Origin: a bacterium
GTDB taxonomy: Bacteria > Planctomycetota > JAFGQW01
Length of the DNA: 64,000 bases
Direction of reading: 5' to 3'
NCBI GenBank assembly: GCA_030426805.1
Contig: JAUHXU010000003.1
Location: 434,001-498,000 of the forward strand
A model generated the notes under the pieces. The model did not search any database, was not told the DNA's origin, and saw only the letters and a list, made by a program, of their open reading frames with translations. Both the position numbers and the translations under genes were made by a program. Shown here one piece after another: positions 49,715-62,685 of the stretch. How positions within the stretch are numbered: the stretch's first letter is position 1; each line of letters opens with the position of its first letter.

Positions 49715-50782
49715 ATGAGGAAGTCACTCGGCATCGTCGCCGCGGTCGCAATCGCACTCACCGCGGCGCACGCCGCCCCGACACAGCAGGTCAACTACAC
49801 CGGCTTCACGCTCGAATCGACGCAGCAGGAGAAGACGAGCTACACGCTCCTGCAAGGCGGCGCGATCGCATCGATCGTGTCGCCGAATATCTACAGTCGG
49901 TCGTACTACTACAGCCCCTTCACAGTCGCCGACTGTTGGATCTCCACCGAAGTACGCGTGATGCGTGGCCTCGACAACGACTTCTTCGGGTTCGTGCTCG
50001 GATACCAACCGGGGGACATGAACACCGACCGCCCGGCCAACTACGTGCTGATCGACTGGAAGGCAGGACAGAGCGCACAGAACGGTGCAAAACCCGGCCT
50101 CGCGATGATCCAGTTGCTACGCGGCGGCCCGATCAAGGGCGGTGAGCAGCAGTCCGTTTTCTGGAAGCACGAAAACCCGACGAACGCACCCTACACCTAC
50201 ATGCGTTCCCTCGCGCGGGGCTCGTCGCTCGGTGGCATCGAGTGGCAACCCTTCACGACCTACGTGTTCGACATCCGCTACGCTCCGACCAAGGTCGAGG
50301 TCTACGTGAACGGGAAGCTCGAGATGAGTGCCGCAGGGAGCTTCTCGCCGGGCCGATTCGGGCTCTACAACTACTCGCAGAACTGGGTCGTCACGGGCCC
50401 GACCTACGTCTCGGTTGCCCGCGTCGGCCGCCCCTTCAACGGCACCGCGATGCTCTCGACCGCGCCATGGCGACCGGGACAGCCCTACGCGATCGACGTG
50501 ACCGGTGCGGCATCTCGCAGCCCGGGGAGCCTCCTCGTGACGCTGCAACCCTCGGCACCGACGGTCGTCGCTCCCGGCCTCGTCGCGCACGTCGACCTGA
50601 CGCGGGTCCTCGTGCGGGCTCCGCTTTCCACCGACTCGGCCGGCCAGGCCCGCCACGCGAGTCGAATCCCGGCGATTCCCGCGCTCGCCGGGATTCGGCT
50701 CGCCTGCCAGGCGGTGTTCACGGGCACCGGCTCGCCGCCGATCGCCACCACCGATGGCCTGAACATCACGATTGCGAAGTAG
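49715..50782 (+). CDS. Secreted protein with a thrombospondin-C/concanavalin-like domain and a shared C-terminal module
   Basis: 355 residues from the ATG at 49715, with GAGGAAGG eight bases upstream. A signal peptide (about 1-20) precedes a jelly-roll domain whose core resembles the thrombospondin C-terminal domain: WISTEVRVMRGLDNDFFGFV, GYQPGDMNTDRPANYVLIDW, FTTYVFDIRYAPTKVEVYVN and GRFGLYNYSQNWVVTGPTYV. Such domains bind glycans or calcium. From about residue 245 a beta-rich C-terminal region ends IPALAGIRLACQAVF, which matches the tail of the SBBP and beta-helix proteins downstream. Outer surface location is likely. It is the first of a block of secreted proteins. Confidence 0.82.
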   Translation: MRKSLGIVAAVAIALTAAHAAPTQQVNYTGFTLESTQQEKTSYTLLQGGAIASIVSPNIYSRSYYYSPFTVADCWISTEVRVMRGLDNDFFGFVLGYQPGDMNTDRPANYVLIDWKAGQSAQNGAKPGLAMIQLLRGGPIKGGEQQSVFWKHENPTNAPYTYMRSLARGSSLGGIEWQPFTTYVFDIRYAPTKVEVYVNGKLEMSAAGSFSPGRFGLYNYSQNWVVTGPTYVSVARVGRPFNGTAMLSTAPWRPGQPYAIDVTGAASRSPGSLLVTLQPSAPTVVAPGLVAHVDLTRVLVRAPLSTDSAGQARHASRIPAIPALAGIRLACQAVFTGTGSPPIATTDGLNITIAK

Positions 50783-50801
50783 GCCGGCCACTCGTCGCCA
50801 C

Positions 50802-50836
50802 GGCGCGGACCCCGGCCGCCCACCGGAGTCCGCGCC
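50802..50836. terminator. Strong hairpin between two convergent genes
   Basis: GGCGCGGAC (50802-50810) pairs perfectly with GTCCGCGCC (50828-50836), with a further four-pair inner stem. There is no T tract on either strand, so it is a possible bidirectional terminator or rho-independent pause rather than a classical intrinsic terminator. Confidence 0.45.
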
Positions 50837-50848
50837 CCTCTGCGGCGA

Positions 50849-53323
50849 TCAGTTCGTGTAGAACGCGGCCATCTTCTTCACGCCGGCGCCCTGGAGGCGC
50901 ATCAACTCGCGCCCGAGCGCGAGGTCGATCACACTGACCGTGCCGTCGCCGTTGGCCACATACATGCGCGCCGGCGCCGACGTCTGCGACGCGTTCGGCA
51001 CGTCCGGCATGTGCTTGAAGTTGTTCGATTGGCACGTGACGTACGGGTCGCGCAGCACGACGTCGCGCGGGCGCGCACCGACCGTGACGACCGTCGTCGT
51101 CTCGAAGTCGACGCCGACGAACGACGGCGGCGGGTTCGGGAACGGCGAATAACGGAACCGCGTGGCCCGGAGGTAGCGCGCCGTGCCGTCGTCACACGTC
51201 ACCCAGAAGCCGGTGAGGCTCGAGGACGGCGGGATCGGGTCGTGGCTGCCGGAGCCCACACCGCCGGACCGCTCGTCGGCGTTGACCGACGTCGGACCCG
51301 GGAGCTGCCCCAACACCTGGACGATGTTGTCGCGGCCGTAGCCGTTGACCTGTTGCGGCCCGGACTCGAACACCGACACCGAGTCGGCGCCCTGGTTCGC
51401 GAAGTAGGCGTAGTTGGGGAACGGCGACAACGACGGCAAGAGCGGCGGGATCCGTCCCGTCGCACAAACGTCGACGCAGTTCGGCCCGACGTTGCCGCGC
51501 AGCGTCAGGCGAACCGGGTCGTTCGACGCGACCTGGTTCAGCTGGATCACGCTGACCGAGTTCTCGAGCCGGTTGACGACGAAGAGATCTTCGTTGTCGG
51601 GCCCGACGGTCAGTGCATCGGCACCCTGACCCGTCGGAATCGTCCGCACGAGCGAGCCGCGCGGCAGGCTCGTCATCGGGTCCGCGGTGATGTCGAACAC
51701 CGACACGCTGTTGCCGCCGAAGTTCGACACGAACATGAACTGCAGCAACGGGTCGATCGCGATCCGCCGCGGATCCGGCGCCGGGATGTCCTTGTAGAGC
51801 TGATACGTGTTCGAGTTGAACACGTGGATCACGTTGCGGTCCTCGTTCGCGACGAACAGGAAGTTGCCGATCGCCTGCACCGGAACCGGGAGCGTCCCGC
51901 ACAACCCGGCGGTCGGCGCCGCACCCGGCAGCGAATACTCGGTGATCGGAGGCGCGGGGGTCGTCGTGATGCGCGGCGGGTTCGGGACCGGCGGGTTGCC
52001 GATCACGTTGCCGCTACCCGGCGGGTTCAGATACGGCGCGATGAACGGGCCGATCACGACGTCGCTGAGTCCGCCCTGCACGAGGCGTGCGAGGTCGTTG
52101 CGGTCGTTGACCGGGACGATGAAGTCCTCGTTCTGCGCGCCGTCGGTGTCCACGACGTTGATCGCGCCGATCTCGCTGTTCGTCGTGACGAAGTGCACGA
52201 CACCCGGCGCCACCGGGTTGTTCGCGAGGTCGGGTCCCCTGCCGGTCGTGAAGCTGTAGGCGCCGTCGGTGAACGCGCTCGCGGGCAGCTCGTTGTTCGC
52301 TCGGTCGAGGTGATACGGCGCGCCGGACACGATCGTCACGCGGATCAGCGTGCTACCCGGCAAGTCGACCTGCGGCGTGAAGCGCAGCTCGTTCGTGAGC
52401 CCGGAGGTCGGCGCGACCGACCCGACGAGCTGAACCGTCTGCGGACCGTTCGGCCCGGTGCTCAGCGCCTGCACGAGCAGGCTGTACGGCGGCGGCGGAC
52501 CGGTCGTCGGCAGCAGCGGCGCCGAGATCACCGACGATGCCTCGATCGGCTCGGTGAGGCGGATCACGATGTCGCTCTTGATGTCGACGTTCGTCTGGTC
52601 GTTCGCCGGCGTCACCGAGTCGATCAGCGGGTAGACGTAGTCGCGGTCGCCGACGTTGAAGCTCGCGGCGAAGCGGGACGAGAGCGCCTCTCCGCCCGCG
52701 GCGCTCTTCACGCCGGCCTGCACGTCGACCTGGATCTGTGCGTGCGGCAGCGCCGCGTTGAAGAGATCCGACGGGAGGAACGACTCCGGCGTCCCGAGCG
52801 CGCCGTCGGTATCGGCGATGAAGTAGGCGACGTTCGCCGCGACCTGATACTTCGCCGGCGCGATGCCGAGTTCCGTCGCGGTGACCGAGCGCAGCACGCC
52901 GCCGTAGGTGCTCGTCGACGGGTCGAAGTTCGTCCGACCGTTCAGAACGAGCACGCCCTGCAGCCGTCGGCTCGACTGCTGCGACGCGGCGCCCGGCGGA
53001 TTGGTCTGCGAGAACTGCCCGAGGTAGTAGCGGTTGATCAGCCGCAGCGCCGAGGAGACGCCGTTGGACGTCGTGGCGTCGAACAGCGTGGCCGGATCGA
53101 CCGCATCGGAGAACTCGATGCGCAGGAACTGGTTCTCGGTCGACGGGCTCGGCTGTGCGGGGAGCATCGCGCCGTTCGGCTCTGCCGCCACGGCGATGAC
53201 GCGGAACACGCCGCCCACGCCGGTGCCGCCTCCGCTGCTTCCCCCGCCCCCACATCCGGCCAGCCCGATCGTCGCGGCGAGACCGGCGATCACGCCGACG
53301 CCGCGCAACGTCTGAAGTCTCAT
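50849..53323 (-). CDS. Surface lipoprotein with Big_5-like domains and a lactonase-type beta-propeller
   Basis: 824 residues from the ATG at 53323, with GGGAGGA about eight bases upstream. Lipobox LAGC (cysteine about 24) is followed by a glycine stretch. Residues about 40-400 hold two bacterial Ig-like regions of the Big_5 type (LRIEFSDAVDPATL, DSVTPANDQTNVDIKSDIVI, RLTEPIEASSVISA), and residues about 480-820 a seven-bladed YncE/lactonase-like propeller, with units such as NFLFVANEDRNVIHVFNSNT, FMFVSNFGGNSVSVFDITAD and YVANGDGTVSVIDLALGREL. Such lipoproteins are of unknown function, often surface-exposed. It converges with the TSP-C-like gene across a strong hairpin. Confidence 0.83.
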   Translation of the reverse strand: MRLQTLRGVGVIAGLAATIGLAGCGGGGSSGGGTGVGGVFRVIAVAAEPNGAMLPAQPSPSTENQFLRIEFSDAVDPATLFDATTSNGVSSALRLINRYYLGQFSQTNPPGAASQQSSRRLQGVLVLNGRTNFDPSTSTYGGVLRSVTATELGIAPAKYQVAANVAYFIADTDGALGTPESFLPSDLFNAALPHAQIQVDVQAGVKSAAGGEALSSRFAASFNVGDRDYVYPLIDSVTPANDQTNVDIKSDIVIRLTEPIEASSVISAPLLPTTGPPPPYSLLVQALSTGPNGPQTVQLVGSVAPTSGLTNELRFTPQVDLPGSTLIRVTIVSGAPYHLDRANNELPASAFTDGAYSFTTGRGPDLANNPVAPGVVHFVTTNSEIGAINVVDTDGAQNEDFIVPVNDRNDLARLVQGGLSDVVIGPFIAPYLNPPGSGNVIGNPPVPNPPRITTTPAPPITEYSLPGAAPTAGLCGTLPVPVQAIGNFLFVANEDRNVIHVFNSNTYQLYKDIPAPDPRRIAIDPLLQFMFVSNFGGNSVSVFDITADPMTSLPRGSLVRTIPTGQGADALTVGPDNEDLFVVNRLENSVSVIQLNQVASNDPVRLTLRGNVGPNCVDVCATGRIPPLLPSLSPFPNYAYFANQGADSVSVFESGPQQVNGYGRDNIVQVLGQLPGPTSVNADERSGGVGSGSHDPIPPSSSLTGFWVTCDDGTARYLRATRFRYSPFPNPPPSFVGVDFETTTVVTVGARPRDVVLRDPYVTCQSNNFKHMPDVPNASQTSAPARMYVANGDGTVSVIDLALGRELMRLQGAGVKKMAAFYTN

Positions 53324-53426
53324 GGTACGTTCCTCCCGGGGGCGACCCCCCGGTCACGTGACGACCCGACTCCAGACTGCGGCACGGAAACGCAAACGAC
53401 GGGCCATCGACGCAATCGACCCGAGA

Positions 53427-53467
53427 AACGGCGCCAGTTGGCCGCAATTCGCGGATTCAGCGCCGTT
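53427..53467. repeat. Nested inverted repeat in the gap between two minus-strand genes
   Basis: AACGGCGC (53427-53434) and GCGCCGTT (53460-53467) are perfect inverted copies, with an inner CCGC/GCGG stem. It lies 80 bases after the beta-helix gene's stop on the minus strand, so may stop or stabilise that transcript; no T tract follows. The rest of the 223-base gap shows nothing distinctive. Confidence 0.35.
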
Positions 53468-53546
53468 CGCGATACGGCAGTTCGAGCGTCGAGGAGGCGC
53501 CGACACGCCGAGCGTGCGGATTCACACGTGCGATCGCGCTACAGCG

Positions 53547-55034
53547 TCAGTGAATCCAGAGGGCCAGCGGGTTCGTGAGCCGACTGCCGACGAGCGCCTG
53601 CACGATGAACGGGGTCGGCGTCGGGAAGGCCGCCGGCAAGCGCACCGTCACGGTCGTGAAGCCGCCGGCGCCGATCGGACTCAGCGGAACGAGCGTGAAC
53701 GGATCGGGCACGACGAACATACCGGCGCCGAGGATCGTGGCCGCCGGCGTCCGCGGCGTCGCGCTCGGTGCGATCGCCGCGACGACCGGTGCGCCGGGCT
53801 GACCGACCACGCGGAGCGCAAACGGCATCGCCGGGCGCGGCTGACCGACGACGTAGAGGTGCATCGCACGCTCGTCGGCGCCGATGTCGGCGGTCCGCAC
53901 GCGACGGCGACGATCCCCTTCGAAGTCGACGGAGAAGGCGCTCTGCGTCGCATCGATCGCCGGCGACCCCACTCGCAGGTGGACGTCGTTCGAGCTCGGG
54001 TCGACGAACAACGGATCGGCCGACGACATCCCCGGCCCCCAATTGAGCGTCGACAACGGCGACGGCACCGAGACGCCCGCGAGGCCGCCGTCGACGATCG
54101 AGTCTCGAATCGACAGCACGCTCAGTGACGTTGCCAACTGCCCGAGCCCGATCTGCGCGCCGGCCGGTGCCTGGTTGCCCCAGAGGATCGAGCGATCGAT
54201 CACATGCGTCCCGCCGTCGATCAACGACACGCCACCACCCGAGTTTCCGGCGCGGTTGTAGGCGATCGTGCAGTGCGACATCGTGCTCACCCAACCGCTC
54301 GTCCACGAACGGAAGACGCCGCCGCCGTCCCGCCCGGCGCTGTTGCCGACGATGACGTTGTTGTCGCAATCGCAGTTCCACGGTTCGTAGTAGATCCCGC
54401 CGCCATCGCGCCCGGCCGTGTTGCCGACGATCGTGTTCTCGAAGATGTCGCAGCCCCAGTTGCCGCCGTTGAAGTGGATGCCGCCGCCGTCGAGCGACGC
54501 GTAGTTGCCGGCGATCACATTGCGGTAGACCTGCGTCCACCCGCCCGACTGCCCGCCGCTGATGCCGCCGCCCACGATCGCCCAGTTGTTCGCGATCGTG
54601 TTGCCGACGATGTGAAACGCCCCACCACCGGCATCGATGCCGCCGAGCCCGTTGCCATGGATCCGGTTGTTCCGAATCACGCCGGTCCCGCAGTAGGTCA
54701 ACTCCACGCCGTAACGACCGTTCGTGATCGTGAACCCGTCGATCACGACCGCGTTGACGCAATCGACGCGTATCGGGCTCTGGCCGCCGCCGTCGATCGT
54801 CGTCAGGAACGCACCGGCCGAACTGCGCAGCACGAGGTCCTTGTTGATGTAGACGCTCTCGTTGTAGCGCCCCGGCGCGACGACGATCGTGTCGCCGGCC
54901 GGTGCCGCGGCGAGGACCGCGCGCTGGATCGTCGGATACGGCCTCGGGACGTGCAGCGTCGTTTGGGCGCCGACGCTCGTGATGCCGAGAACGCCCCAGA
55001 GCGCCACGACGAGCGCGAGTGTTCGACCACGCAT
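53547..55034 (-). CDS. Secreted right-handed parallel beta-helix protein with shared C-terminal module
   Basis: 495 residues from the ATG at 55034, with GGAGG seven bases upstream. A signal peptide (about 1-23) leads into a beta-helix: TTLHVPRPYPTIQRAVLAAA, DTIVVAPGRYNESVYINKDL, FTITNGRYGVELTYCGTGVI and repeated GNxAGRDGGGI turns up to about residue 290. The segment VGSPAIDATQSAFSVDFEGD, RTADIGADE is the polymorphic outer-membrane/choice-of-anchor region known from such proteins. The last 100 residues (PRPAMPFALRVVGQPGAPVV to QALVGSRLTNPLALWIH) match the C-terminal module of neighbouring secreted proteins. It may be a surface adhesin or polysaccharide lyase-like protein; no catalytic residues are evident. 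Confidence 0.84.
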   Translation of the reverse strand: MRGRTLALVVALWGVLGITSVGAQTTLHVPRPYPTIQRAVLAAAPAGDTIVVAPGRYNESVYINKDLVLRSSAGAFLTTIDGGGQSPIRVDCVNAVVIDGFTITNGRYGVELTYCGTGVIRNNRIHGNGLGGIDAGGGAFHIVGNTIANNWAIVGGGISGGQSGGWTQVYRNVIAGNYASLDGGGIHFNGGNWGCDIFENTIVGNTAGRDGGGIYYEPWNCDCDNNVIVGNSAGRDGGGVFRSWTSGWVSTMSHCTIAYNRAGNSGGGVSLIDGGTHVIDRSILWGNQAPAGAQIGLGQLATSLSVLSIRDSIVDGGLAGVSVPSPLSTLNWGPGMSSADPLFVDPSSNDVHLRVGSPAIDATQSAFSVDFEGDRRRRVRTADIGADERAMHLYVVGQPRPAMPFALRVVGQPGAPVVAAIAPSATPRTPAATILGAGMFVVPDPFTLVPLSPIGAGGFTTVTVRLPAAFPTPTPFIVQALVGSRLTNPLALWIH

Positions 55035-55096
55035 TTCACCACCTCCTATGCCCCGCATTCTCCGACACGGGTGCATGCCGCGCAACGCCCCGGCCG

Positions 55097-55102
55097 TATA
55101 AT
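55097..55102 (+). promoter_or_regulatory. Consensus -10 TATAAT seven bases before the start codon
   Basis: TATAAT, then CGGCGCG, then the ATG at 55110: the clearest leaderless-promoter arrangement in the window. No ribosome site precedes the ATG. Confidence 0.62.
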
Positions 55103-55109
55103 CGGCGCG

Positions 55110-57581
55110 ATGTACGCCAGACTGCTCCTCGCCGTGCTGCTCACGGCCCTGCCCGCGGCCGCGCAGACCGGCCACCGCCTGATCGCCAACGGCAACCGCT
55201 TCCTGCTCGAAGATCGGGCGACGGCGGTGAAGCGGCCGTTCGAGATGTGGACGACGCGGCTCGCGAACGCGTTCGTGACGCAGTCGTTCGCCGATCGCGT
55301 GATCGCCGCACTCGACGACTACATGCGCTACGGCGTGAACACGGTCTGCGTGTCGATCCAGGGCGGCGAACTCGGGCCGGGCAACAACGCGCTCTACCCG
55401 TCGACGCTGAACGCCGACGGCACCCTCGATCTCGCGAGCCCGGTGTGGGCTCGGCTCGACCGGTTCCTCGACGAGACCGATCGGCGCGGGATGGCCGTCA
55501 ACGTGATGATCTGGTATCACCGCCGCGCGATCGAGGTGCCCGACGACACGAACGCGCTGGCCGCGACGCGCGCGGTCGCCGCGTGGCTGCGCGCAACGGG
55601 CCACGAGCACTACGTCTACGACGTCGCGAACGAGTTCGACCACAACGCCTACCGGTTCCCGGACAACGGGCCGAAGCGACCGCTGTTCAGCACGCTCCAG
55701 GGCGCGCTCGCGCTCGTGCACGCGGTGCAACAGACGGACCCCGGTCGACCGGTCGGCGTGAGCCCGCTCGGCCAGCTCTTCTGCCCGAGCGGCACGCTGC
55801 TCACCGCGCCCGGCCAGCCGTTCGTGCAGGCCGACGTGATCTACAACCACGGCTGGGCGGTCGACCCGCTGAACACCGCGGCCTACCGCTTCAACGTCTG
55901 GCCGACGAACCCGAGCGCGTTCCCACTGATCAACAACGAGTTCTTCACGCAGCTCGGCTACGAACTCCGGCCCTATCAGAATCCGCGGACGAACGTGCTC
56001 AGCTACGGTCACTGGGACGCGACCACGACGCAGCGATACATCGCGGAGCTCGCGACCGTGCGCGGTTTCGGCGGCGCCCCGAACGTCTTCTCGCACTTCC
56101 AGCAATACGCGCCGCCGTTCGGCGTCGAGCCGGAAGCCGAGGTCGGGCCGGCCGGCACGCAACCCGAGAGCACGTTGACGCCGAACGAGCCGAGCATGCA
56201 CTGGATGTTCGACGCGATCGCCGGGCTGCGCGGCTTCGCGGGGTTGCCGTTCTTCCTCGACATGGACGCGCACACCGGCGGCCTCGAGACCGCGCTCGCC
56301 GGCACGTGGACGATCGCCGGGGGCGAACTCGCGCAGACCGACACGAACGCCACGCCGGCATGGGCGCGGATCGCCGCCGACGACGGCGAGTGCGAGGTCG
56401 CGTTCGACGTGCGGTGGATCGCCGCGCCGGGGGCGACCGGGTCGGCAGGCATTCGCGTCGGTGACGAGACGCCGGTCGGTGACGCGTGGGCGGCCGACGT
56501 GTTGCGCGATCGCCTGCGCCTCGTGCGCGGTGCATCGATGACGACGCTCGCGCATGTGCCGCGTGCGACGAGTCGCTATGCGTTCCGGATGCGCCGCGGG
56601 CGCGTGCAACTCGATGTGGACGGCGTGACCGCGATCGACGTCGCTGGCGCACCGGTCGGCGCCGACCAGAATCTGCTGCTCGTGACCGGCGGCGCTGCGG
56701 CGGCGTTCGACAACGTGCGGCTGACGCCGTTTCGCGACACCGATTTCGAGGACGGGACGAGCGGGGCATGGCAGGTGCAGACCGGCGCGTGGTCGGTCGT
56801 GCCGCGGCCCGGCGTGCCGGCGGAACGCGTGTGGGAGTCGACCGCACCTGGATTCGCCGCCGACGCGCGCCTGTTCGCTGACGTGCGCGTGGACGTCCGC
56901 GCGGACATCGCGGCCGCGACCGGCGCGCTCGGGATCCGGTGGCGCGCTGCCGACGCGACCGACGCGGCGAGCGACGGATACGCGCTGTTCGTCGCGCCGA
57001 ACGGCGACGTGCGGCTCGAGCGCACGCTCGCGTCGGTGACGACGACGCTGGCCACCGCGCGCCCGACGATCACGCCCGCCGACGTCGCGATCACCGTCGT
57101 CGCCGAGGGCGCGCGCATCGCGGTGCGCATCGACGGCGTCACCGTGCTCGACGTGATCGACCCGTCGCCGACCGCACCGGTTCGCGGGGCGCTACAGCTC
57201 GTCGCGCCGACCGGCACGACCCGCGTCGACGACGTGTTCGTCGCACTCGGCCCCGACCGCTTGCCGGAAGCGCGCTACACGCCCGCGGCCGGCCCGGCGT
57301 TCGCGAAGGGATCGACGTTCGAGTTCACCGACCCCGACGGCTTGAACGACGTCGCGTTCCTCGCGTTCGCGCTCGCGCCCGGCACGCAGACGTTCGTCGA
57401 CCTGACCGTGTTGATGCACCCCGCGTTCAACCTGTTCTCGTTCGCCCCCACCGCGGACGGCCGCGGTTACCGTTTCCGCTCCCTCGTCGACGTCCCCGTC
57501 ACGAACGGCCCCTGGCGCATCCGCCTCACGACCCGCGACCGCGCGGGGCAGACGGCCGTGCGCATCTTCTCGATCGGATAG
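55110..57581 (+). CDS. Secreted GH5-like glycoside hydrolase with two jelly-roll modules
   Basis: 823 residues from the ATG at 55110. The signal peptide (about 1-19, ending LPAAAQ) precedes a TIM-barrel: FADRVIAALDDYMRYGVNTV, WARLDRFLDETDRRGMAVNV and MIWYHRRAI. A probable acid/base Glu falls in VYDVANEFDHN (about 175) and a probable nucleophile in PLINNEFF (about 277), as in clan GH-A. Two beta-sandwich modules of the 3-keto-disaccharide-hydrolase/LamG type follow (about 405-560, GTWTIAGGELAQTDTNATPA; about 565-720, GAWQVQTGAWSVVPRPG), then a C-terminal beta domain. It probably hydrolyses a plant or algal polysaccharide outside the cell; the substrate is not predictable. Confidence 0.78.
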   Translation: MYARLLLAVLLTALPAAAQTGHRLIANGNRFLLEDRATAVKRPFEMWTTRLANAFVTQSFADRVIAALDDYMRYGVNTVCVSIQGGELGPGNNALYPSTLNADGTLDLASPVWARLDRFLDETDRRGMAVNVMIWYHRRAIEVPDDTNALAATRAVAAWLRATGHEHYVYDVANEFDHNAYRFPDNGPKRPLFSTLQGALALVHAVQQTDPGRPVGVSPLGQLFCPSGTLLTAPGQPFVQADVIYNHGWAVDPLNTAAYRFNVWPTNPSAFPLINNEFFTQLGYELRPYQNPRTNVLSYGHWDATTTQRYIAELATVRGFGGAPNVFSHFQQYAPPFGVEPEAEVGPAGTQPESTLTPNEPSMHWMFDAIAGLRGFAGLPFFLDMDAHTGGLETALAGTWTIAGGELAQTDTNATPAWARIAADDGECEVAFDVRWIAAPGATGSAGIRVGDETPVGDAWAADVLRDRLRLVRGASMTTLAHVPRATSRYAFRMRRGRVQLDVDGVTAIDVAGAPVGADQNLLLVTGGAAAAFDNVRLTPFRDTDFEDGTSGAWQVQTGAWSVVPRPGVPAERVWESTAPGFAADARLFADVRVDVRADIAAATGALGIRWRAADATDAASDGYALFVAPNGDVRLERTLASVTTTLATARPTITPADVAITVVAEGARIAVRIDGVTVLDVIDPSPTAPVRGALQLVAPTGTTRVDDVFVALGPDRLPEARYTPAAGPAFAKGSTFEFTDPDGLNDVAFLAFALAPGTQTFVDLTVLMHPAFNLFSFAPTADGRGYRFRSLVDVPVTNGPWRIRLTTRDRAGQTAVRIFSIG

Positions 57582-57715
57582 CGATGACCAACGCCCTGAC
57601 CGCACCCGTGGCACCGACCCCGATCGCCACCTCCACGGCGGCTTCGAGACCCGCGTCGTGACCCAGGTCTGGGCCTTCGGGGCGACGGGGCAGGGGTAGC
57701 CGGGCACGCGGGCCA

Positions 57716-60223
57716 TCAGTAGATCCAGAAGCTCTCCGTGTTGGAGACCGACTGGATGCCCAGCGGCGCGCTCGGCTTGAACGTCACGAACGCCGAGTGG
57801 ACGACGACGCCGGCGAGGGCCGGGACGTTCGGAATCCGCAGCGACGCCTGGCCGAGCCCCTGCGCATCGAGCGTGCCCGTGTAGCCGACGAACGTTCCGG
57901 GCAGCGTGCCGCTCACGGAGAGCGCGAGTAGCGGATCGGGGCTCAACCCCAGCGGCCGCGCACCGATCGGAATCGGGCCGGTGCCGAGTGACGAGCCGAG
58001 CTGGTAGGGAAGGCCGGGCTCGTCGTTGATGACGAGCGTCATCGTCGCGCCGGGTCGCGGCGTTCCGGTGACCGTCAGTTCAGTAAGAGCGACCTTCGCC
58101 GCAAACGTGTCCTGGCGCCCCCAGCCGTTAAACGTCAGGTCCGGACCGACGCGCACCGGAAACTGTGCCTCGGTAGCCATGGTACCGCCCACGATGTAGA
58201 TCCGGTTTCCGAGAGGATCGGTCGCGACGTGGGTCGCCCCGTCGGCCAAAGGGCTGCCTACAAAGGTGCTGTACTCGAGCGCCGCGCCGGTCGGATCGAC
58301 CCGTGCGATATATGCGTCACCCCCGCCGTTGTTCGGCGTCACGGCCGGCCCGATTGCCGGGAAGTCCTGACTGGCTGTTCCGCCGGCGACCGTCGCGCGT
58401 CCGATCGCATCGACGGCAATCCCAACGGCATTGTCGGGCCCGACCCCACCGAGGTAGCCAAGATACTCCCAGCCACTGCCGTCTGCACGAAGCCGCCCAA
58501 CGAAGCCTTCGCCATCGTTGCTATGGGTCAGGTCCGGGCCAACCCGGACCGGAAAGGTGTGCTCGTCACTCAGCGTCCCGCCGCACAGGTAGGCCCGGCC
58601 GAGGCGATCGACGGCGACGGCGCTGACGGTAGCCCCGAACCTCCCGCCGATGTAGCCGCAATAGTCGAGTCCGCTCGCATCGGGTTTCACCTTCGCGATG
58701 AACGAGTCGGGAAAGTTCGGCGAGTTGTACGTGAGATCCGGCCCGACAGCGACCGGGAACCCATCGTTCTCGGTGCTCAGGGTTCCGCCAACGACGTAGG
58801 CAGCGCCATCGCCACCGACCGTGACTCCGACTGTCCAGTCCCTTTTCGACCCGCCGAGGTAGCTACAGTAGTCGAGCCGCTTCCCGTCAGACGCTACCCT
58901 TGCGACAAACCCGTCCACGTAGCCCCCCGGAGACGGGTCGCGCAAGAACGGCCCGACCTTCACCGGGAAGGTCCCATCGTCGCTCTCGGTGTTGCCAACG
59001 ACGAAGGCGACGCCAGCGACGTCGACGGCGACATCGATGAGTCGATCGCCCAGAGCCCCGCCGAGATAGCCGCAGTACACGAGGCCGGTCCCGTCGGGTC
59101 GGACCTTTGCGATGAACCCGTCGCCGGTCTGCAACGGCGCACCGATGTCGTTCTGCGTCAGATCCGGACCGACCGCGACCGGGAAATTTGACTCGAGGCT
59201 GTCGGTCGCTCCGACGACGTAGGCGGCGCCCGCCGCATCCACCGCGACCCCATGCCCAACGTCGCTACCTAGGCCGCCGATGTAACCGAGGTAGACAACT
59301 CCGGTCCCGTCGGGCCCTATTCTTGCGACAAACGCGTCCGGGTTCGGTGCGAGGTTCGGCGGTGGCCTGAAGCTGTTGAACGTGAGATCCGGGCCGACCG
59401 TGACCGGAATCTTCGTCTCGTCGAGGTTCGTGTATCCGGTGAGGTAGAGCGCGCCGTCCGGGCCAACTGCGATGTCCTCGATGTTGGCCAGCCCGAAGAG
59501 GTAGCCGCAGTAGACGAGCACCGGCGGGTCGATCACGAGCGGTCGCGTGCGGTCGTAGTCACCGAGCGTGAACGCGATCTCGCAGCCGGCTGGCGTTTCG
59601 ATCAGGTCGAGCGTCGCCTCGACGGGCACGCGTGCCCCGCCATCACAGGCCGGCTGGAACACGACCGGCGGCCCCTCCTCGATCTCGCCAGCAGGCGTCA
59701 CCACACGCAGACCACCCGCGTCGGTGCGCTCGACGCGCTCGGCGCCCTCGTACCGAAAGCGCGCCTGCGCCGGGTCCGCGCCTGGGTGGACAATGACGTC
59801 GTACTTGAGCCGCCCGTTCTCGAGCGCGTAGACGACATCGATCCCGGGCCAGACCTCGCGGTAGACGACGCGCTCGTACGTCCGGAGCCCGGTCTGGGAG
59901 TCATCACCGCCGCGGAAGTAGCTCACGACCGTCTCGGCCTGCGCCTCGCCTTCCGGGGTGACATCCGCCCCGTCGACGAACGAGAAACGCACGGTCCACG
60001 CGGGCTCCCCGGCGAGCCGGAACGTCACGCCGCCAGCCGTGAACAGTACCGTCCGGCCCCCGGCCTCGACGTGGAAACGCACGGCCGGCCCGTAGCGCCC
60101 TCGGCTCTCGACGAACGGCACCGGCAGCCCGCGAACCACCGCCTCCGCCTTCGCACGCGACACCGGCTGGGCAACCACCGCGCTCGCGAGAAACACGAGC
60201 ACCAACGCGCAAACTCGACCCAT
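57716..60223 (-). CDS. Secreted SBBP beta-propeller protein (paralogue A) with shared C-terminal module
   Basis: 835 residues from the ATG at 60223, with GGAGG seven bases upstream. Signal peptide to about residue 19, then a DUF7948-like domain (VPFVESRGRYGPAVRFHVEA, YREVWPGIDVVYALENGRLK, TLGDYDRTRPLVIDPPVLVY). From about 245 to 700, seven SBBP-type repeats are each about 60 residues, with the consensus DAFVAKVxPDGTGLxYxGYLGG...GIAVDxxGxAYVxGxTxS..FPVxVGPDLTxN. The recurring VGPDLT(Y/F)N step is unusual and very regular. The last 120 residues are the shared module (TPRPGATMTLVINDEPGLPY through PALAGVVVHSAFVTF). It is a tandem paralogue of the next gene. Confidence 0.85.
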   Translation of the reverse strand: MGRVCALVLVFLASAVVAQPVSRAKAEAVVRGLPVPFVESRGRYGPAVRFHVEAGGRTVLFTAGGVTFRLAGEPAWTVRFSFVDGADVTPEGEAQAETVVSYFRGGDDSQTGLRTYERVVYREVWPGIDVVYALENGRLKYDVIVHPGADPAQARFRYEGAERVERTDAGGLRVVTPAGEIEEGPPVVFQPACDGGARVPVEATLDLIETPAGCEIAFTLGDYDRTRPLVIDPPVLVYCGYLFGLANIEDIAVGPDGALYLTGYTNLDETKIPVTVGPDLTFNSFRPPPNLAPNPDAFVARIGPDGTGVVYLGYIGGLGSDVGHGVAVDAAGAAYVVGATDSLESNFPVAVGPDLTQNDIGAPLQTGDGFIAKVRPDGTGLVYCGYLGGALGDRLIDVAVDVAGVAFVVGNTESDDGTFPVKVGPFLRDPSPGGYVDGFVARVASDGKRLDYCSYLGGSKRDWTVGVTVGGDGAAYVVGGTLSTENDGFPVAVGPDLTYNSPNFPDSFIAKVKPDASGLDYCGYIGGRFGATVSAVAVDRLGRAYLCGGTLSDEHTFPVRVGPDLTHSNDGEGFVGRLRADGSGWEYLGYLGGVGPDNAVGIAVDAIGRATVAGGTASQDFPAIGPAVTPNNGGGDAYIARVDPTGAALEYSTFVGSPLADGATHVATDPLGNRIYIVGGTMATEAQFPVRVGPDLTFNGWGRQDTFAAKVALTELTVTGTPRPGATMTLVINDEPGLPYQLGSSLGTGPIPIGARPLGLSPDPLLALSVSGTLPGTFVGYTGTLDAQGLGQASLRIPNVPALAGVVVHSAFVTFKPSAPLGIQSVSNTESFWIY

Positions 60224-60300
60224 CGTGGCACCTCCATCCTTGCACTCTACCCGTCCCGCGAGACACGCGGAAGAGAGGCGACCGCCGCCGCGTATGCCGC

Positions 60301-62685
60301 CTACGGCACGATCGTCGTCGGGGTGGCGTTCGAGATCGACTTGATGCCGCCGGGGTGGCCCGGCGCGAACGTCAGGAAGGCGGTGAACAGGTTCACGCCG
60401 ACGAGCGCGGGGAACGGCGGCAGCACGATCGTCGACGTCCACTGGCCGTTCGCCGGCACCGTGCCCGCGTAGCTCCGGAACACACCCGGCAACGTCCCGT
60501 CGACCGACACCTGCAACACGCCGTCGGGAGACAGATCGACGCGCCGCTGCCCCGGCAGCGTGATCGGGCCACCGCCGAGCGCGGTGCCGACCTGGAACGG
60601 CAAACCGACGTCCTCCGACGCGACACAGTCGATCGCGATCGACGCACCGGGCCTCGCAGCGAGCGGCGTTGCCGCGACGGTCTGGCCGACCTTCGTCAGG
60701 AAGCTCCCCTGCAATTGGCTGCCGTAGAGAAGGTTCGGACCCACGCGAACCGGGAACGTGCCACTGCTTCGCGTGACGCCGGCCACGTGCACCGCGCCGG
60801 TCGGACCGAGGGCGACCGCATGCGCGGAATCGACGTGATGGCCGCCGAGATACCCGCCGTACTCAACGTGGCCACCGTCTTGGGCGATCCGCAGCAGCAC
60901 CGCGTCCGGCGCTACCGCGATCGCCCCCGACAACGCACCACCGACCGGGTAAGGCGGCGTGGCGATTACGTTGCCGGCGACCGACACGCGACCGCTCGTA
61001 TCGACGGCCAGCGCGAGTGGCGCGACACCGCCGAGGAAACCCGAATAGTCGAACCCGCTTCCGTCGGGCTTGATCTTCGCGAGGTAGCCGTCGCCGCGTT
61101 GGCTCGGCGGAACCGCTGCTCTCGGCCACGGCCCGCGGACGATCGGAAACGTCGCCTCGTCACTCTGGGTCTGGCCGCATACGTACGCGGCGCCCTGTCG
61201 GTCGACGACGATTCGCGCAGTCCACTCGTCGAGTGCGCCACCGACGTAGCCGGCGTAGTGGATCGTGCCGCTGGTGCCGTCGACTTTCATCACGAACGCG
61301 TCGAACACCCCCTGCAGCGTTGTCATCGGACCGATCATGACGGGGAACGAACGCTCATCGCTCAGGGTCCGCCCCACGACGTAGGCATCACCCGCGGCGT
61401 CGACGTCGACGTCCGTGCAGTATTGGATCGCCGGCCCGGCGCCGCCGATGAAGCCGGAGACGAGCAAGGAACGACCGTCGGGTGCCACCTTCGTCAGCGT
61501 CCCGGGCGCAGGTCCGGGCATCGTGGTTTGCGGCCCCCCGCGCGTCGGGTAGTCGGGACTGTCCGTCTGCCCGGCAATCCACAACGCGCCCATGCCGTCG
61601 ACCGCGACGCCGCGCACGCCCTCGACCTGAGTGCCTCCGACGTACCCGCAGTAGCGTATGGACTGGCCGTCCAGTGACAACTTGCAAACAAACGCGTCGA
61701 GGCCGCCACCCGCGTACACAAGCGACGGGCCCGCGCGCACCGGGAAACTCTGCTCGTCGGAACTCGTGTTGCCCGCCGCGTAGACACCGGTCGCATCCAC
61801 GGCCACGCCGGTGACGATCGATCCCTTCGCCCCGGAGACGTAGGTGATGAAGTCGAACGCCGTGTAGTCGGGCCGCACCTTGGCGACGACCCCTTGCAAC
61901 ATTAGGGCCGCGTCCAGAACGGCGCCGCCGACGTAGACCGCACCCGTCGCGTCGACGGCGATGTCCTGCAGCGACGTCATGTTCGGAATCAGGTGGCCGC
62001 TCGCGACGATGAACGCCGGGTCGATCACGAGCGTGCGCGACCGGTCGTAGTCGCCGACCGCGAATCCGACCTCGTCCGTCGCATCGCTCGCGAGCGCGAA
62101 CGCCGATGCGACCGGCACGCGTTCGGTGCCTTGCCATGAGACCGGCGCCGGGTCGGTGCGTTCGGTGTCGCCGCCGATGTGCAGCGAACCGTGGGCGCCC
62201 ACGGCCAGCTGCGCGCCGACCCAGCGCATCCGGATCGCACGCGGGTCCGCACCGGGCGCGACGTGGAACTCGTATTTCACCTCGCCGCGCGCGCCGTGGA
62301 GCACGAGGTCGATGCCCGGCCACAACTCGGCGTAGCGGATCCGCTCGAACGTCGGGACGCCGGTGCGCCAGTCGGGCTCCCGGCCGATCAGGTAGTTCAC
62401 GCGGGTCGGGAGCGCCGCCTCGGGAGTCGCGTGTGCTGCCGCGCTCGAGCCGGGGAACTCGACGCGCAAGTCGGCGCGCCCGTGCTCGCGGAAGACGATC
62501 GCGCCATCCTTGATGAGCACCGCGCCCGTGGTGTGATCGACGTGGTAGCGCACCGACGCCTCGTGGCGATCGCGGTTCTCGACGAAGAACACCGGGATCC
62601 CGGTCGGGGCGGACTGGGCGGCTGCAGTCGCGCCGACGAACATCGCGGCGAACACGAGCCCGGCGCGCGTACGTCGACTCCGCAT
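60301..62685 (-). CDS. Secreted SBBP beta-propeller protein (paralogue B) with shared C-terminal module
   Basis: 794 residues from the ATG at 62685, with a full AGGAGGT ribosome site six to seven bases upstream. A signal peptide (about 1-23) is followed by a DUF7948-like domain (IPVFFVENRDRHEASVRYHV, IRYAELWPGIDLVLHGARGE, VGDYDRSRTLVIDPAFIVAS). Six propeller repeats follow, in the style of the upstream paralogue but with a looser form of the VGPDLT step (RAGPSLVYAG, MIGPMTTLQG, RVGPNLLYGS). It ends in the shared module (ARPGASIAIDCVASEDVGLP through PALVGVNLFTAFLTF). A 77-base gap separates it from paralogue A; they probably arose by tandem duplication. Confidence 0.85.
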   Translation of the reverse strand: MRSRRTRAGLVFAAMFVGATAAAQSAPTGIPVFFVENRDRHEASVRYHVDHTTGAVLIKDGAIVFREHGRADLRVEFPGSSAAAHATPEAALPTRVNYLIGREPDWRTGVPTFERIRYAELWPGIDLVLHGARGEVKYEFHVAPGADPRAIRMRWVGAQLAVGAHGSLHIGGDTERTDPAPVSWQGTERVPVASAFALASDATDEVGFAVGDYDRSRTLVIDPAFIVASGHLIPNMTSLQDIAVDATGAVYVGGAVLDAALMLQGVVAKVRPDYTAFDFITYVSGAKGSIVTGVAVDATGVYAAGNTSSDEQSFPVRAGPSLVYAGGGLDAFVCKLSLDGQSIRYCGYVGGTQVEGVRGVAVDGMGALWIAGQTDSPDYPTRGGPQTTMPGPAPGTLTKVAPDGRSLLVSGFIGGAGPAIQYCTDVDVDAAGDAYVVGRTLSDERSFPVMIGPMTTLQGVFDAFVMKVDGTSGTIHYAGYVGGALDEWTARIVVDRQGAAYVCGQTQSDEATFPIVRGPWPRAAVPPSQRGDGYLAKIKPDGSGFDYSGFLGGVAPLALAVDTSGRVSVAGNVIATPPYPVGGALSGAIAVAPDAVLLRIAQDGGHVEYGGYLGGHHVDSAHAVALGPTGAVHVAGVTRSSGTFPVRVGPNLLYGSQLQGSFLTKVGQTVAATPLAARPGASIAIDCVASEDVGLPFQVGTALGGGPITLPGQRRVDLSPDGVLQVSVDGTLPGVFRSYAGTVPANGQWTSTIVLPPFPALVGVNLFTAFLTFAPGHPGGIKSISNATPTTIVP

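Follow-up and report, generated by a model that had tools for sequence, protein, structure and literature searches.

We found four genes for exported proteins that end in related C-terminal domains (hereafter the tails) in a 64,000-nucleotide stretch of a planctomycete genome. This stretch, the window, is C6:434001–498000 of a 5.58 Mb MAG with six contigs and 90.8% completeness. Type A denotes here the main family of tails, type B the subfamily of the beta-helix protein. In window coordinates, the genes and their tails are as follows.

49715–50782, + strand: exported protein whose N-terminal part is weakly TSP-C/lectin-like (TSP_C, E 0.016, below the cut-off), with a signal peptide (MRKSLGIVAAVAIALTAAHAA) and a main-family tail
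50429–50779, + strand (core about 50441–50779): tail of the TSP-C-like protein, which HMM and BLAST assign to the main family as a divergent member
53547–55034, − strand: exported right-handed beta-helix protein (Beta_helix, E 9e-13) with a choice-of-anchor-Q-like segment ahead of the tail (choice_anch_Q, E 3.3e-5; 24 bits against a cut-off of 25)
53550–53858, − strand: tail of the beta-helix protein, type B, a nine-member subfamily (from its relatives, a profile link and AlphaFold)
57716–60223, − strand: SBBP1, exported DUF7948 + SBBP beta-propeller protein (DUF7948, E 5.9e-43; SBBP, E 5e-11)
57719–58087, − strand: SBBP1 tail, main family (type A; own-genome matches and AlphaFold)
60301–62685, − strand: SBBP2, exported DUF7948 + SBBP beta-propeller protein and paralogue of SBBP1 (DUF7948, E 3.7e-43; common cargo cluster)
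60304–60678, − strand: SBBP2 tail, main family (type A; 48% identity to the SBBP1 tail, HMM E 2.7e-35)

All four genes encode a signal-peptide-like N-terminus and their tails run to the stop codons; the tail boundaries in the original prediction were accurate to within a few codons. The neighbourhood also contains a lipoprotein gene at 50849–53323 (− strand; lipobox LAGC, Big_5 and a beta-propeller) without a tail. At 55110–57581 (+ strand), amid the tail genes, lies a gene for an exported glycoside-hydrolase-like protein, in which no tail is detected by HMM.

Relationship and fold of the four tails

The original prediction took the four tails for one module on the basis of a shared residue pattern. 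Aligned over its length, the SBBP1 tail is a plain homologue of the SBBP2 tail (E 9e-30). The direct match between the TSP-C-like and SBBP1 tails spans 21 residues only. An HMM trained without the TSP-C-like tail scores it at 24.2 bits (E 3e-7 within the tail set, 9e-6 when the window ORFs are scanned), compared with 16.9 bits for the best of 2000 shuffles and 2.1 bits for the reversed tail, and its BLAST matches include seven members of the family (E 1e-6 to 5e-4). HMM and BLAST thus place it, if weakly, in the main family. Chance similarity was considered for these three tails and ruled out by direct alignment, shuffles and reversal.

The beta-helix tail scores 8.1 bits with the same HMM, under its best shuffle (10.8 bits), so that profile, fold and cargo-swap tests were needed for it. 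It has eight clear relatives in its own genome, all following the same type of cargo end. When the nine-member type B profile was compared with the 95-member type A profile in hhalign, the probability was 96% with P 2.4e-9 for this single comparison, and an alternative alignment gave 95% and P 6e-8. Moreover, related beta-helix cargo (n = 17) carries a type B tail in nine cases and a type A tail in eight. These carriers combine homologous cargo with alternative tails, the subtypes being interchangeable. The beta-helix tail is thus a remote subfamily, tied to the others by profile–profile comparison, predicted fold and swapped cargo. As it fails the plain HMM, the residue pattern describes the main family; a single module is borne out by HMM and BLAST for the SBBP1, SBBP2 and TSP-C-like tails, and the pattern alone does not carry the beta-helix tail. 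Likewise, the HMM proposed as a check links the TSP-C-like tail and misses the beta-helix tail, which is joined by hhalign.

AlphaFold predicts an Ig-like beta-sandwich for the SBBP1 tail (pLDDT 95, pTM 0.87), and the beta-helix tail is predicted with a pLDDT of 88.7 and a pTM of 0.77. Both models are essentially all-beta and have a common strand order, as the original prediction had anticipated for a structural comparison, differing by one short helix and small strands. The tails are about 105–125 residues long and the chain is predicted to end in a beta-strand. The most strongly conserved columns are D56 (94 of 95 tails), Y33, F71, Y74, R49, P91 and several glycines. A Foldseek search against solved structures returned nothing at E ≤ 0.001; its leaders, below significance, were antibody Ig domains (TM about 0.5) and, for type B, also an uncharacterized Leptospira protein. 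A PDB sequence search with the tail gave no match up to E 1, and Pfam and NCBIfam models gave only single scattered matches to the tails, with E above 0.01. The tails are one superfamily of Ig-like domains without a name in Pfam, NCBIfam or PDB. The Planc_extracel family (PF07595) was also considered and has no match in the genome. Our literature search found no description of planctomycete C-terminal sorting domains.

Number, position and cargo of the tail

With the SBBP1 tail as a single query, at least 150 matches were found in its own genome (with scores for 150 of 290 candidates, the weakest match at E 2.1e-6), and a 15-row tail profile likewise gave at least 150; E-values are per genome. 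Carriers were extracted from stretches around 168 match places. The main profile fits 155 of them, and together with the TSP-C-like protein and nine type B carriers the number is at least about 165, so that the original prediction of one tail on differing exported cargo extends far beyond the four window proteins. They occur on all six contigs and make up about 4.3% of the genome DNA. The domain is flush with the stop codon in 154 of the 155 profile-confirmed carriers; the distance from model end to stop has a median of −1 residue and a 5–95% range of −3.3 to 0.3. A crude script rule (not SignalP) assigned a signal-peptide-like N-terminus to 158 of 164 carriers and found an AxAQ-like site in 71 of the 164. 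The tail is thus nearly always the last element of an exported protein, on unrelated cargo.

Exceptions to this position do occur. In L067 (C1:319600–319905) of the same genome, the tail directly follows the signal peptide and precedes the cargo, and in L251, from another family, it also directly follows the signal peptide and is itself followed by what by eye is a serine-hydrolase/beta-lactamase-type domain. At C3:301147 (L121), two tail-like domains stand in tandem at the end, the second of a different subtype. At L109:301–3110 and L078:506–4342, three adjoining tail-bearing genes each run in the same direction and are apparently tandem duplicates.

Five long hydrophobic stretches were found, all in core strands of the tail, starting 27–41 residues before the end. 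Lipoprotein anchoring was rejected as a general explanation: a lipobox-like pattern is found in only 10 of 164 carriers, most of which also have a type-I-like site just after it. The tail matches no named domain and provides neither a lipid nor a membrane anchor.

The cargo is far more diverse than the tails. BLAST groups the cargo parts into 42 clusters, whereas the tails form three (155, 9 and 1 members), and only 459 of 4129 tail pairs at E < 1e-10 have similar cargo. Named cargo includes DUF7948/SBBP (18), beta-helix (13), PD40, FG-GAP and kelch proteins as well as M14 and S8 peptidases, CotH, arylsulfotransferase and LamG-like domains; many carriers match no named family. The largest cargo cluster (for example, L066:476–1720) has 48 carriers of about 410 residues, probably propellers, most of which match no named family. 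The tail is present on every one of the 18 DUF7948 proteins in the genome, and these form one cargo cluster, which includes SBBP1 and SBBP2. Since these two paralogues have DUF7948/SBBP cargo in common, the window holds three cargo types; the original prediction was right that the cargo kinds differ and wrong in counting four unrelated ones. When cargo is mapped onto a tail tree built with FastTree, five labels require 13 changes where the minimum is four, suggesting that the pairing of cargo and tail is, on this sequence evidence, partly inherited and partly reshuffled. Because of this partial co-inheritance, not each pairing represents an independent swap.

Some carriers belong to families for which sorting tails are known elsewhere. 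We found choice-of-anchor Q (12), V (2), B, X and GloVer (one each) cargo, two carriers matching the MXAN_6652 family and two matching a T9SS-dependent M6-like family, although some of these matches may fall under the curated cut-offs. The NCBIfam name "choice-of-anchor" seems to refer to families in which the terminal anchor varies from lineage to lineage. By this naming logic, the tail sits here where the anchor sits elsewhere, and on choice-of-anchor cargo it occupies the place of known sorting tails of other phyla.

Such C-termini are probably common in planctomycete genomes. At E ≤ 1e-5, a 95-row profile finds the tail in 70 of 392 sampled Planctomycetota genomes from 16 family groups, while the other genomes give no match and many families are negative. 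Single-genome counts are at least 150 within the same family and 88, 48, 46, 35, 28 and 18 in others. At the loci of other families the domain is again C-terminal, ending within 15 residues of the stop in all but one, and a signal peptide usually precedes where the start is included. A scan of named genomes with a conserved subset (A3) gave 50 pattern matches, none of which was confirmed. Using tails of other families as queries, a second scan yielded seven loci, of which six lie in planctomycete records; the seventh is a short, weak match in one Desulfobulbaceae bin, in which the profile finds no tail.

What the tail may do

On balance, we think it probable, by a modest measure, that the tail is a C-terminal sorting or surface-retention tag that acts by recognition in one part of the Planctomycetota. 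The N-terminal signal peptide would take the precursor over the inner membrane, and a shared apparatus in the periplasm or at the outer membrane would then recognise the folded C-terminal domain and either export the cargo or keep it held at the surface. The cargo, mostly propellers, beta-helices, FG-GAP and kelch proteins with some hydrolases, would work extracellularly. This reading is supported by the homology of the tails, their near-strict C-terminal position, their number, the cargo diversity, which includes choice-of-anchor families, the tail swapping, the fold prediction and the lack of a match to any known tail family. It is also favoured by the tail-less neighbouring lipoprotein, which has its own lipid anchor, and by an apparent fold parallel with the T9SS export signal, a C-terminal Ig-like beta-sandwich (PMC4804311). 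On the other hand, the domains after the signal peptide in L067 and L251 and the tandem in L121 argue against a signal that is strictly C-terminal. An accessory Ig domain at the C-terminus that plays no part in sorting could give the same picture.

Passive surface binding is a serious rival, given the two proteins in which the domain immediately follows the signal peptide. An Ig-like tail would then bind the cell surface, the S-layer or extracellular polysaccharide, and cargo exported by a general route would stay attached, with no need for dedicated translocation machinery. The Ig-like fold is consistent with this, as are the placement right after the signal peptide and the single tandem, both frequent in binding domains; the choice-of-anchor cargo is explained equally well. 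Adhesive Ig domains often form tandem arrays, however, whereas almost all carriers have one stop-flush copy at the C-terminus, and we consider passive attachment somewhat unlikely, while noting that it overlaps in practice with sorting or anchoring by recognition. It seems quite improbable that the tail serves as a structural cap, or as a domain for folding or stability, that was duplicated with the secreted proteins of the lineage and has no targeting role. Its compact, well-folded predicted structure and partial co-inheritance with the cargo would fit such a cap, but the 42 cargo clusters, the subfamily swap on related cargo and the neighbouring lipoprotein without a tail argue against it.

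As a sub-case of the sorting-tag reading, the tail might be read by the type II secretion system of the genome, whose operon is one candidate for the recognising machinery. The operon (L267:499–8296), which resembles a type II system, encodes a secretin, GspE, GspF, GspG and three further pseudopilin-like proteins with an N-methylation (pilin-type) motif. MYXO-CTERM proteins are thought to get to the surface via a type II system (PMC11980579), which lends this sub-case some support. Nevertheless, we regard it as unlikely, as nothing ties the tail to the operon and secretins, of which the genome has six, serve other systems too. To our knowledge, no common linear type II signal has been established. 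In a further locus (L270:349–7148), a MotA/ExbB-like gene and two ExbD-like genes are closely followed downstream by a gene that bears a secretin.

Comparison with known sorting systems

Extracellular protein transport and retention in planctomycetes are poorly known, and the tail HMM offers a handle for predicting the exoproteome and searching for partner machinery. The PEP-CTERM/exosortase system was discovered from a signal of this kind (PMC1569441), here a single undescribed domain borne by at least about 165 exported proteins. PEP-CTERM is likewise a C-terminal homology domain that occurs in many copies, on signal-peptide proteins of diverse types, but it consists of a short motif, a transmembrane helix and a basic end, whereas the tail is a folded domain. 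Exosortase (TIGR04178) has no match in this genome and matches three control genomes. The tails contain no C-terminal transmembrane helix with a basic end, the feature of PEP-CTERM, MYXO-CTERM and LPXTG signals. MYXO-CTERM is also a sorting tag of surface proteins, and the MXAN_6652 family, matched by two carriers, is described as anchored by it. It comprises a cysteine motif, a transmembrane helix and an arginine-rich end (PMC11980579), none of which the tail has. The choice-of-anchor names denote the cargo and not the anchor, and the tail would add an anchor type.

The type IX CTD of Bacteroidota is an Ig-like beta-sandwich that exists in several sequence types for one job (PMC4804311, PMC10202324). 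Like the tail, it is C-terminal on unrelated proteins with Sec signal peptides, the likeness resting for the tail on the crude script and the predicted fold. Its sequence types are type A (TIGR04183/PF18962) and type B (TIGR04131/PF13585), and the tail similarly has more than one. The two differ in length, about 105–125 residues for the tail and 73 for the crystallised RgpB CTD fragment, and type IX is found in a different phylum. None of 95 tails matched TIGR04183, TIGR04131, PF18962 or PF13585 even at E ≤ 1. SprA_N has no match in the genome, and no control genome matched it either. We tentatively entertain, as a possibility by analogy, a separately evolved, Planctomycetota-specific system for outer-membrane export or anchoring that reads the Ig-like tail and would handle well over 100 proteins per genome in some lineages. 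The type IX CTD is the closest working analogue of the tails, but by sequence they do not belong to its families.
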